From Pseudotamlana haliotis (GTDB lineage Bacteria; Bacteroidota; Bacteroidia; Flavobacteriales; Flavobacteriaceae), in contig NZ_WAAT01000037.1 of the NCBI RefSeq assembly GCF_008806375.1, positions 62,001 through 126,000 on the forward strand: a stretch of 64,000 nt of DNA, given 5' to 3'. Each line of letters opens with the position of its first letter. The first letter of the stretch is position 1. Below, piece by piece: positions 25,895-39,543 of this stretch. The notes under the pieces were generated by a model, which saw only the letters and a list, made by a program, of their open reading frames with translations, did not search any database and was not told the DNA's origin. The translations under genes and the position numbers were made by a program.

Positions 25895-26236
25895 TTATTT
25901 AATAACCAGTTTACGTGTTTCGCTAAACTCGTTTTCGGTTATCTTTAGGATGTAAATGCCTTTGTTTAACTGGGAAATATTCAATTCTCGACCACTAAGT
26001 TTTGTTGCAAATAAACGCTTGCCCAGCACATTGTAAATTTCAATGTTTTTAGTGGCGTTCATCGTTGAGACGATATTGATATAAGTTGTTTGAGAATTTA
26101 CGGGATTTGGGTAAATGTTTAATCCAGGTATATTTTCTTCTACAGACGAAAATGCTCCCTTATTTTGCGCTTCAGTAGGGAAGGCTAAAAGCAAGGAAAA
26201 TGCAATAAATAAAAAGAAAAAGTATTTTTTTTTCAT
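25895..26236 (-). CDS. Small secreted protein made almost only of a T9SS type A sorting domain
   Basis: The 113-residue product has a signal peptide (KKKYFFFLFIAFSLLLAFPT, cut near TEAQ). A linker of about 20 residues follows, then a complete type A C-terminal sorting domain (IYPNPVNSQTTYINI, IEIYNVLGKRLF, LNISQLNKGIYILKI, TRKLVIK). Such domains normally sit at the end of large cargo proteins exported by the type IX system and attached to the surface; here there is no cargo. An ATG at 26257 would add seven residues before the signal peptide, so ATG 26236 is preferred. Confidence 0.88.
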   Translation of the reverse strand: MKKKYFFFLFIAFSLLLAFPTEAQNKGAFSSVEENIPGLNIYPNPVNSQTTYINIVSTMNATKNIEIYNVLGKRLFATKLSGRELNISQLNKGIYILKITENEFSETRKLVIK

Positions 26237-36457: not shown

Positions 36458-37591
36458 ATGAAGAAAATTCAAATGGTTGACCTTAAAGGTCAGTATAATG
36501 AGATTAAAGATACGGTTAATCCTGCCATACAAGAGGTCATAGAAAATACAGCGTTTATTAACGGACCAAAAGTTCACGATTTCCAAAAAAAATTAGAGAA
36601 TTATTTAGATGTCAAGCATGTTATCCCATGTGCGAATGGTACAGATGCTTTACAGATTGCTATGATGGGTTTGGGTTTAAAACCTGGTGATGAGGTAATC
36701 ACTGCTGATTTTACCTTTGCTGCCACTGTGGAGGTGATTGCTTTATTGCAACTAACTCCTGTTTTAGTTGATGTTAATCCAAATGATTTCAACATCAATA
36801 TTGAAGCCATTAAAAATGCTATTACGCCAAAAACCAAAGCTATTGTTCCTGTGCATTTGTTTGGACAATGTGCTAACATGGAAGCGATCATGGAAATAGC
36901 CCAAGCACATGATTTATTTGTCATTGAAGATAATGCTCAAGCTATTGGTGCGAACTACACTTTTAAAGATGGTAGAAAAGTAAAAGCTGGAACCATTGGA
37001 AATGTTGGGGCAACCTCATTTTTTCCTTCAAAAAACTTAGGATGTTATGGCGATGGTGGTGCTATTTTTACCAATGATGATGAATTGGCACACACGATTA
37101 GAGGTGTTGTCAATCATGGTATGTATGAACGTTATCATCATGATGTTGTTGGTGTGAATTCAAGATTAGATAGTATTCAAGCGGCTGTATTAGATGCGAA
37201 GCTACCACTTCTCGATGCTTATAATGCACGCCGAATTGAGGCAGCCAACAAATATGATGCAGCATTTAAAGACATTGATTGTATTGAAATACCTTTCCGT
37301 TATGGAGATGTTGATAATCATGTGTTTCATCAATACACCTTAAAAGTTAAGGGTGTTGATCGTGATGCTTTAGTGAAGCATTTAAATGAAAAAGAAATTC
37401 CTTGTGGTGTTTATTACCCGATTCCACTTCACAAGCAAAAAGCATATTTGGATGAACGTTATGTGGAATCCAATTTTGAAGTAACCAATCAATTGGTAAA
37501 AGAAGTGATATCTTTACCTATGCATACGGAATTAGATAACGAACAAATTAACTATATAACAACAACTATAACTAACTTTATTGATGGATAA
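36458..37591 (+). CDS. DegT/DnrJ/EryC1 sugar aminotransferase
   Basis: This 377-residue PLP enzyme transfers an amino group to a keto-sugar nucleotide. It has MVDLKGQYNEIKDTVNPAI at the start and CANGTDALQIAMMGLGLKPG at about 58-77. VPVHLFGQCANM precedes the DNAQAIGA aspartate that contacts PLP, and the Schiff-base lysine is in FFPSKNLGCYGDGGA at about 187-201. Such enzymes supply amino sugars for O-antigen, capsule or glycoprotein glycans. Its last 8 bases overlap galE. Confidence 0.93.
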   Translation: MKKIQMVDLKGQYNEIKDTVNPAIQEVIENTAFINGPKVHDFQKKLENYLDVKHVIPCANGTDALQIAMMGLGLKPGDEVITADFTFAATVEVIALLQLTPVLVDVNPNDFNINIEAIKNAITPKTKAIVPVHLFGQCANMEAIMEIAQAHDLFVIEDNAQAIGANYTFKDGRKVKAGTIGNVGATSFFPSKNLGCYGDGGAIFTNDDELAHTIRGVVNHGMYERYHHDVVGVNSRLDSIQAAVLDAKLPLLDAYNARRIEAANKYDAAFKDIDCIEIPFRYGDVDNHVFHQYTLKVKGVDRDALVKHLNEKEIPCGVYYPIPLHKQKAYLDERYVESNFEVTNQLVKEVISLPMHTELDNEQINYITTTITNFIDG

Positions 37592-38603
37592 AATTTTAGT
37601 CACAGGCGGACTGGGATTTATTGGATCCCACACCGTTGTAGAATTACAAAACGAAGGCTACGAAGTCGTAATTATTGATGATTTATCAAACTCATCAGAA
37701 AAGGTGTTAGACGGTATTACTACCATTACCGGAAAAACACCGCTTTTTGAAAAATTAGATTTAAAAGACAAAGGGGGCGTTGAAGCTTTCTTTGCTAAAC
37801 ATAATGACATAAAAGGGGTCATTCATTTTGCAGCGAGTAAAGCTGTTGGTGAAAGTGTACAAGAGCCTTTGTTGTATTATGAAAACAATATTGGAACTTT
37901 AGTTTACATTCTTAAAGAATTAAAAAAGTTGCCTTCGGCGGCCTTTATTTTTAGTTCTTCATGTACGGTTTATGGTCAGGCTGATGAACTACCAATCACA
38001 GAAAATGCACCGGTTAAGCAAGCTGAGTCACCTTATGGTAATACCAAGCAAATTGGTGAAGAAATTATTAAAGATACCTGTAGGGTCGTACCGAACTTAA
38101 AAGCTATTGCTTTACGTTATTTTAACCCTGTAGGTGCTCATGAGACTGCTGAAATTGGTGAACTGCCAATTGGTGTGCCTCAAAATTTAGTACCTTTTAT
38201 TACGCAGACCGCTATAGGGTTACGCGAAGAATTATCTGTTTTTGGAGATGATTATCCAACACCAGATGGTACTTGCATAAGAGATTATATTCATGTGGTT
38301 GATTTAGCGAAGGCCCATGTCGTGGCTCTAGGGCGTCTATTGCAAGGTAAAAACAAATCCAATTTTGAAACGTTTAACTTAGGGACAGGAACAGGAAGTT
38401 CTGTATTAGAAGTGGTGAAATCTTTTGAGAAAGTTTCAGATGAAAAGTTAAATTATAAAATTGTTGGCAGACGTGAAGGTGATATTATTTCAGCCTATGC
38501 CGATACTAATAAAGCTAATGATGAATTGGGTTGGAAAACGACTCTAACTTTAGATGACGCGATGCGTTCCGCCTGGAAATGGGAGCAAAAAGTACGTGGA
38601 TAA
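37584..38603 (+). CDS. galE: UDP-glucose 4-epimerase
   Basis: The 339-residue extended SDR interconverts UDP-glucose and UDP-galactose (or the N-acetyl forms). The NAD motif is TGGLGFIGSHTVVEL and DDLSNSS follows at about 34-40. The serine is in FIFSSSCTVYGQ and YGNTKQIGEE holds the catalytic Tyr and Lys. The GalE-specific RYFNPVGAH and PDGTCIRDYIHVVDLA are present. I chose the ATG at 37584, since the TTG before it has no support. The 8-base overlap with the aminotransferase implies translational coupling. Confidence 0.95.
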   Translation: MDKILVTGGLGFIGSHTVVELQNEGYEVVIIDDLSNSSEKVLDGITTITGKTPLFEKLDLKDKGGVEAFFAKHNDIKGVIHFAASKAVGESVQEPLLYYENNIGTLVYILKELKKLPSAAFIFSSSCTVYGQADELPITENAPVKQAESPYGNTKQIGEEIIKDTCRVVPNLKAIALRYFNPVGAHETAEIGELPIGVPQNLVPFITQTAIGLREELSVFGDDYPTPDGTCIRDYIHVVDLAKAHVVALGRLLQGKNKSNFETFNLGTGTGSSVLEVVKSFEKVSDEKLNYKIVGRREGDIISAYADTNKANDELGWKTTLTLDDAMRSAWKWEQKVRG

Positions 38604-38634
38604 ATAATTCTTAAAAAGATTAAAAGTACAGAGA

Positions 38635-38663
38635 AAAGGTTGCTGAAATTAGCAGCCTTTTTT
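38635..38663 (+). terminator. Intrinsic terminator of galE
   Basis: AAAGGTTGCT pairs with AGCAGCCTTT (one wobble pair) and is followed by a T run, 32 bases after the galE stop. Confidence 0.8.
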
Positions 38664-38727
38664 ATTTGATTTATTGACGATTAAAAATGAAGACACCGCA
38701 TGTCGTATAGAGCGAGGGGGAAGGTTA

Positions 38728-38783
38728 GTATCTTTGAATAGTTAATTAAAAGTAAAGATTTTTCATAAGTTTAGTTTGGTTAG
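38728..38783 (+). repeat. Tandem direct repeat, copy 1 (promoter plus 5' part of the small RNA)
   Basis: These 56 bases match copy 2 at 38909-38964 in 54 positions, with a period of 181 bases. The repeat starts at the TATCTTTG promoter element (38729-38736) and ends just before the terminator hairpin. Confidence 0.9.
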
Positions 38784-38831
38784 ATTGAGAAGGCTACAAA
38801 ATGTTTGAAATGACATTATGTAGCCTTTTTT
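38741..38831 (+). ncRNA. Candidate small RNA, copy 1
   Basis: A consensus -7 element TATCTTTG at 38729-38736 starts a unit of about 90 nt. It ends in a strong intrinsic terminator: AAGGCTACA at 38790-38798 pairs with TGTAGCCTT at 38819-38827, the stem is extended by AATG/CATT, and a T run follows. There is no start codon with a sensible frame and no gene downstream to be controlled. The transcription start is estimated from the promoter element. The family is not identified. Confidence 0.6.
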
Positions 38832-38908
38832 GTGATGTTTTTAATTTGTTGTCTCCTCATGATGGCAAAACGGACATGAGATGTCGTATAAAATAGAGCT
38901 AAAGCCGT

Positions 38909-38964
38909 GTATCTTTGAATAGATAATTAGAAGTAAAGATTTTTCATAAGTTTAGTTTGGTTAG
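38909..38964 (+). repeat. Tandem direct repeat, copy 2
   Basis: This is the second copy of the 56-base block (54 of 56 identical to 38728-38783), beginning at TATCTTTG 38910-38917. The bases between the two copies are less similar, apart from an ATGTCGTATA shared at 38700-38709 and 38881-38890. Confidence 0.9.
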
Positions 38965-39011
38965 TCAAAAAAGGCTACAACACGTAAATCACGTCTTGTA
39001 GCCTTTTTTTT
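38922..39011 (+). ncRNA. Candidate small RNA, copy 2
   Basis: The layout is the same as in copy 1: TATCTTTG at 38910-38917, then a nearly identical 5' half, then a terminator with AAGGCTACAA at 38971-38980 pairing to TTGTAGCCTT at 38996-39005. The lower stem is conserved between copies, while the upper stem differs and still pairs (ACGT/ACGT instead of AATG/CATT). The same hairpin could end lspA transcripts from the other strand. Confidence 0.6.
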
Positions 39012-39033: not shown

Positions 39034-39543
39034 TTAGCTTGTTTTCTTTTGTTTTAAACTTACAAAAAGTAAAATAATCATACCGGCGCTTACAGACATG
39101 TCGGCGAGGTTAAAAATACCAGTTCTGAAAAAACCGCCTAAATCTATGAATAAAAAATCGGTTACCGAACCATAAACGATTCTATCGTAAACATTGGCTA
39201 CGCCACCTCCAATAATACTTGCAAAGGCAAATAAACTCCAGTTGTCTAAGCTTTTGTCTTTTAAAATATGTCTTAGTACAAAGCCTAAAACTAAAATAGG
39301 AACGATTAACAAAAAGATAAGGCGTAGTGTGGGATTCAAATCACTGCCCATACCTAAAAAAGCGCCTGTATTTTCAACATTCATTAGGGTGAAATAATCA
39401 CCAATAATAGGGATGCGCTCGCCAGGATTGTTTGCGGTTCTTCCTGCCACGTTAGCTCTAACGATAACTTTTGAAATCTGATCGGCAGCAATGGTTAGAA
39501 TAATAACCGTGAAAATATAAATGGAACGTTTGCTAAGTTTCAT
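39034..39543 (-). CDS. lspA: Lipoprotein signal peptidase (signal peptidase II)
   Basis: The 169-residue inner-membrane aspartic protease cleaves prolipoproteins. It has four hydrophobic segments. The family motifs are NVENTGAFLGMG (about 55-66), GGGVANVYDRIVYGSVTDF (about 112-130, holding the two catalytic aspartates) and FNLADMSVSAG (about 145-155). Its start overlaps the fabD stop by one base, so the two genes are co-transcribed. Many lipoproteins in this window are its likely substrates. Confidence 0.95.
   Translation of the reverse strand: MKLSKRSIYIFTVIILTIAADQISKVIVRANVAGRTANNPGERIPIIGDYFTLMNVENTGAFLGMGSDLNPTLRLIFLLIVPILVLGFVLRHILKDKSLDNWSLFAFASIIGGGVANVYDRIVYGSVTDFLFIDLGGFFRTGIFNLADMSVSAGMIILLFVSLKQKKTS

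Follow-up and report, generated by a model that had tools for sequence, protein, structure and literature searches.

The window analysed, a 64,000-nucleotide stretch of Pseudotamlana haliotis DNA, contains galE (37581-38603, + strand) and the convergent lspA (39034-39543, - strand), both assigned from the ORF list and from synteny. As was claimed in a preliminary description of this DNA, the gap between them lacks a coding frame, there being no listed ORF of at least 40 residues from the galE stop at 38603 to the lspA boundary, and a small-ORF reading of the units is rejected on that basis. What the gap does contain is a direct repeat with a period of 181 nt, of which copy 1 spans 38728-38804 and copy 2 spans 38909-38985 (88% identity over 77 nt, with 54 of the first 56 nt identical, as previously described). 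When copy 1 is searched against the genome by BLAST, copy 2 is recovered with E values between 1.7e-20 and 1.7e-26, which excludes chance as the origin of the repeat. A terminator search places galE's own terminator at 38632-38663 (+), between galE and the repeated units, which thus are not the 3' end of galE.

The two units, both on the + strand, are built alike. Each has a perfect TAnnTTTG promoter box, TATCTTTG (38729-38736 in copy 1, conserved in the congeneric genomes G002 and G005; 38910-38917 in copy 2, likewise conserved in relatives), and exactly 23 nt upstream of the box each has a dyad of the form GACAY-N3-(A/G)TGTCG, i.e. GACACCGCATGTCG at 38692-38705 and GACATGAGATGTCG at 38873-38886, the latter recovered in the genome pattern search. 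With starts deduced from the boxes, the predicted RNAs would extend over 38741-38832 (~92 nt) and 38922-39011 (~90 nt), an assignment consistent with the predicted folds and, for copy 1, with aligned relatives. The conserved core includes a 30-nt seed, AAAGATTTTTCATAAGTTTAGTTTGGTTAG, at 38754-38783, in which the CAT at 38764-38766 is an anti-ATG; the repeat and alignment locate the same sequence at 38935-38964 in copy 2. Neither the dyads, nor the galE terminator, nor the observation that the core, read on the opposite strand, is a translation start formed part of the preliminary description.

As had been proposed, each unit ends in a strong intrinsic terminator, identified from its repeat arms and fold. 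In copy 1 the hairpin and T tract occupy 38790-38831 (arms 38790-38804/38813-38827), and in copy 2 the hairpin occupies 38967-39009, with 19-nt arms (38967-38985/38991-39009) that are 95% complementary and a T tract that reaches 39011. Both units fold to far lower energies than their shuffles (z -4.4 for copy 1, -6.0 for copy 2), owing to these near-perfect hairpins. The earlier proposal that the upper stems differ while still pairing, as expected of selection for RNA structure, stands as regards the pairing; the compensation between the copies (ATGT/ACAT versus ACGT/ACGT) amounts to one pair, T-A to C-G, which is weak evidence when taken alone, but gains support from a set of paralogues (below) whose terminators covary, 7 of 21 pairs being changed on both sides.

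The tandem pair is also present in G002 and G005, with the galE and lspA flanks read directly in G002, and the pair is syntenic at galE-lspA in both relatives. Among six aligned units, identity between genomes is 94% for the box and seed, 53% for the spacer between dyad and box, and 45% for the upstream flank. In the leader, the tandem copies of one genome resemble each other more closely; whole-unit identities are equivocal with respect to concerted evolution. Further copies are dispersed in the genome that contains the window (G000), which has at least seven dyad-driven copies together with a related one on contig C76. Five of the former (on C12, C50, C69 and, twice, on C56) constitute subfamily II, the covarying set mentioned above, in which the seed is closely related to that of the tandem pair and the terminator is different. 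The RNA at C76 is without an exact dyad and has orthologues in G002 and G005; more dyad-driven paralogues are found in G001, G003, G004 and G005. The contrast between the conserved box and seed and the diverged spacer, the synteny in two congeneric genomes, and the dispersed paralogues with the same promoter architecture and seed make sibling small RNAs, as initially suggested, the best reading of the pair, and the units are very probably real sRNA genes, their transcription being predicted from these sequence features.

A model of the wider family was constructed from 11 members on sequence only; as their stems were misaligned by MAFFT from one clade to another, it includes no base pairs. Of 299 Flavobacteriaceae genomes, 79 have matches to it at E<=0.01; the tail of these matches near 0.01 is uncertain and not all to be trusted, although most of the weak-tail members that were read have a seed-like sequence and a terminator. 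Strong multicopy sets, with a best E below 1e-15, occur only in seven genomes (G000, G002, G005, G022, G425, G446, G521), of which the Algibacter/Tamlana genomes G022, G425, G446 and G521 have 8-11 matches each, with a terminator after the seed in nearly all. In another flavobacterial genus, G503 C4 (L246:1958-2509) contains four tandem sRNA-like copies ~160-180 nt apart with a variant seed, TTTTTCATAGTTTAGATAGTTTTAGTTAG. In the Algibacter genome G022, six copies are interspersed with genes within 20 kb (C7:98500-118400, L090); their leaders are longer, and a small hairpin can be discerned there.

The association of dyad and promoter is rigid. The whole genome has 11 sites with the pattern ATGTCG-N23-TAnnTTTG, against 3 with the reversed control; the dyad pattern independently recovers every one of the 11. 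The left half-site GACAY is present at 34 of 34 [AG]TGTCG-N23-TAnnTTTG sites in ten stretches from seven genomes, which were chosen for that pattern, GACAY itself not being required by the search. All six genus genomes have such dyad-promoter sites, 6-11 in each (55 in total versus 16 for the control), and the remaining sampled genomes, outside the genus, are at about chance level; the matches listed in a scan of named genomes include chance matches in unrelated phyla. The dyad with its 23-nt spacing is kept outside the genus in G399 and G356 sequences and is not kept by the Algibacter sRNA copies. TAnnTTTG promoters have their box at -12 to -5 from the start (PMC9723704). The start position expected from this geometry would put the dyad centre near -42.5. 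Class II activators bind at about -42.5, and the dyad is thus a putative activator site.

Other dyad sites precede a gene for a 200-residue secreted protein, or drive a conserved cluster of small ORFs of unknown function around an XRE-like protein (G000 C31:119379-120254; 73-91% identical in seven genomes, one of them Algibacter), which has dyad promoters on its flanks. The XRE-like protein, for which the HTH_3 match is sub-threshold (17.1 bits versus 23), is by association a plausible candidate regulator of the GACAYNNNATGTCG promoters.

Reverse-complemented, the seed becomes CTAACCAAACTAAACTT-ATG-AAAAATC, which resembles the start of a receptor gene. Pairing was evaluated against 646 gene starts from about 0.9 Mb of G000 stretches, including 17 genes with a Plug domain. 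Seed duplex energies average -14.6 kcal/mol for the TonB genes versus -9.8 kcal/mol for the others (p=1e-6), and SusC-type receptors are five of the top eight genes; a good seed site is absent from many TonB genes. When the seed was shuffled 150 times with its dinucleotides preserved, neither the overall TonB enrichment nor the top-8 or top-20 count was reached in any shuffle, and the SusC-only statistic was reached in one. Among the same gene starts there is no TonB enrichment with the reversed seed, nor with the Bacteroides FopS seed (p=0.34), and the subfamily II seed gives a weaker enrichment (p=0.004). In Algibacter G022, the genome's own seed behaves similarly (TonB -14.8 versus -10.4, p=5e-5; FopS seed there, p=0.09), and a Bacteroides control of the test (8 receptors, 0.4 Mb) is in the same direction and not significant (p=0.11). 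The best duplexes extend over the AUG; that at C74:57579 has 17 perfect pairs. In the predicted fold, to be compared with the single-stranded 5' region that characterises FopS, the seed bases are partly paired (mean unpaired about 0.40-0.45), with an open UUUUCAU loop and weak leader pairing. One of the top seed targets predicted within the window is the start accaaacaaaacagATGAAAAAA of a 113-residue protein with a T9SS sorting domain (25895-26236, - strand).

With respect to known families, the preliminary description had left open whether the units belong to one in Rfam. An Rfam 15 scan of the window gives only Flavo-1 (RF01705; 4677-4777, + strand; 47.8 bits, exceeding the gathering score), which is outside the tandem units, and a permissive search of Rfam gives chance-level matches apart from FopS and BTnc049, both under cut-off. 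With BTnc049 (RF04179) there is a weak whole-length covariance match of 22.9 bits covering AGUUUAGUU and the terminator; however, the cut-off is 81.9, and the predicted 5' structure of BTnc049 is not shared. FopS (RF04319), the nearest meaningful family although far below its cut-off, comprises paralogous sRNAs described as conserved within Bacteroidaceae. Its blocking of initiation on a susC mRNA has been demonstrated through in-line probing, in vitro translation and EMSA that included compensatory mutants, and it is bound and counteracted by the RRM protein RbpB (PMC11697453). Like FopS (PMC11697453), the tandem-unit RNAs are short, intergenic and multicopy in the genome, with a canonical Bacteroidetes promoter, a 3' Rho-independent terminator and a seed that begins UUUUUCAU and is antisense, in silico, to susC-type translation starts. 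By contrast, the seed complement is lineage-specific (CTAACCAAACTAAACTTATG versus AACCTTAAATCTAATACTATG in FopS), the R1' seed UUUUUCAUGGUAUUAGAUUUAAGGUUAA of FopS is not present as such (UUUUUCAU and GGUUA are retained and the middle differs), and the promoter is dyad-controlled with a fixed 23-nt spacing. No RRM_1 (PF00076) protein, the RbpB type, was found in the seven flavobacterial genomes examined, compared with three in the Bacteroides-like control G331. A phylum scan with the FopS model reports no match in G000, and the unit itself scores 18.4 bits versus a gathering score of 56, and by these tests, together with the different seed core and the lack of an RRM protein, it is not a member of FopS. 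GibS of Bacteroides thetaiotaomicron (PMC7366714) is similar in that it shares the R1 seed with FopS and has its regulation marked by a non-canonical promoter element, but it has two seeds and a PM2 promoter at -10/-30, and leaves susC, the FopS target, unrepressed. No flavobacterial counterpart of FopS was found in the searched literature, and the tandem units are members of an uncatalogued, multicopy, FopS-like flavobacterial sRNA family.

Two readings of the units as something other than regulatory RNAs are very improbable. That they might be a dispersed repeat or mobile element of the MITE or REP type, with no regulatory RNA, is suggested by their multiple and frequently clustered or tandem copies, but is largely refuted by the synteny of the pair, the retention of box and seed while spacers diverge, the fixed dyad spacing, and a repeat listing that has no terminal inverted repeats bounding the unit. 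Scarcely credible, too, is the notion that the units are no more than terminators working in both directions, or leftovers of the galE/lspA 3'UTRs, with no function in trans: these genes are convergent and terminators do lie between them, but galE has its own terminator upstream, each unit carries a dyad and a TAnnTTTG box, and the paralogues at unrelated loci largely refute it. A diverged FopS orthologue, with common descent rather than convergence, is possible if doubtful; this concerns origin and is compatible with receptor repression. In favour of common descent are the shared order of elements (UUUUUCAU, ..UUAG.UUU.., GGUUA, AAAA, terminator) and sequences of intermediate appearance from other Bacteroidota (L116, L117), both families also being multicopy. 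On the other hand, the low covariance score corresponds to an E of 0.6-4, depending on search size, RRM_1 proteins are lacking as above, and each of the two seeds mimics the receptor starts of its own lineage, which would lead to convergence as well.

A further alternative concerns the targets. It may be that the RNAs are real but act principally on the starts of secreted or cell-surface proteins of any kind (MKK/MKN, with A-rich leaders), of which TonB receptors are merely the largest group. Among the top single matches are those to a T9SS-sorted protein (C74:57579) and to an LRR protein (C74:128931); when MK-type starts with a signal-peptide-like hydrophobic stretch serve as the comparison, the TonB excess is no longer significant (p=0.15), implying that the signal is partly common to secreted-protein starts. 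However, the excess persists against all MK-starting genes (p=0.002), and the upstream-pairing part of the seed, AAGTTTAGTTTGGTTAG, by itself separates the TonB genes (p about 2e-6). General targeting of this type appears rather unlikely.

The favoured interpretation, which we consider likely, is that of an anti-start-codon sRNA family that represses SusC/TonB nutrient receptors, the transcripts, sizes and starts being deduced from the DNA and the target enrichment being statistical. The tandem units would produce two near-identical, trans-acting sRNAs of ~90 nt, each with a TAnnTTTG promoter and a dyad near -42.5, the seed UUUUUCAUAAGUUUAGUUUGGUUAG and a Rho-independent terminator. The seed would pair with translation initiation regions resembling 5'-CUAACCAAACU..AUGAAAAA, mainly those of SusC/TonB-dependent receptors, plus those of some secreted (T9SS) proteins, and the duplex would mask the start codon and the A-rich region upstream, so blocking ribosomes from initiating; such a block is suggested by the geometry of the duplex over the AUG and by the FopS precedent. 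Synthesis of nutrient receptors would then fall while the dyad-binding regulator, possibly the conserved XRE-like protein whose gene lies among dyad promoters, is active, with the several sRNA copies adding dose. The probable effect of the tandem sRNAs is thus to shut down nutrient uptake.

Flavobacteria play a major part in degrading algal polysaccharides, and the literature searched yielded no sRNA that regulates their SusC/TonB systems. The present analysis provides sRNAs with mapped loci, target sites predicted to span start codons, and one candidate regulator, for which about ten promoters are mapped in each genome. A further suggestion is that receptors are countered by anti-start-codon sRNAs in at least two lineages of Bacteroidota, that the seeds are adapted to the start consensus of the lineage concerned, and that RbpB is not needed. 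In Enterobacteria, MicA/RybB-type sigma-E sRNAs are made by a dedicated regulator and shut off outer-membrane protein synthesis; the regulatory logic, if confirmed for the tandem-unit family, would be alike, whereas the sequences, regulators and chaperones are unrelated. More tentatively, the XRE-like protein may govern about a dozen rigid promoters, mostly of redundant sRNAs that jointly shut off SusC/TonB receptors without RbpB, as a flavobacterial analogue of the sigma-E/outer-membrane-protein sRNA system in which seeds evolve with the receptor start consensus.

The surroundings of the XRE-like gene have features of their own. In L096:6105-9899 (G000 C31), small ORFs of unknown function, the XRE-like protein and YtxH/holin-like, stress-type genes form the conserved cluster, in which one dyad is near-palindromic and could act in both directions. 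Adjoining the XRE-like gene, from L096:9914 onward (G000 C31:120913), is a second, distinct non-coding unit, likewise conserved and likewise under the dyad promoter; it has a block of conservation around TTAATAGCAA...GTTTGATTTTTAAGTTTG, a terminator-like end in G000, and orthologues in L414, L416, L418, L419, L420 and L421.
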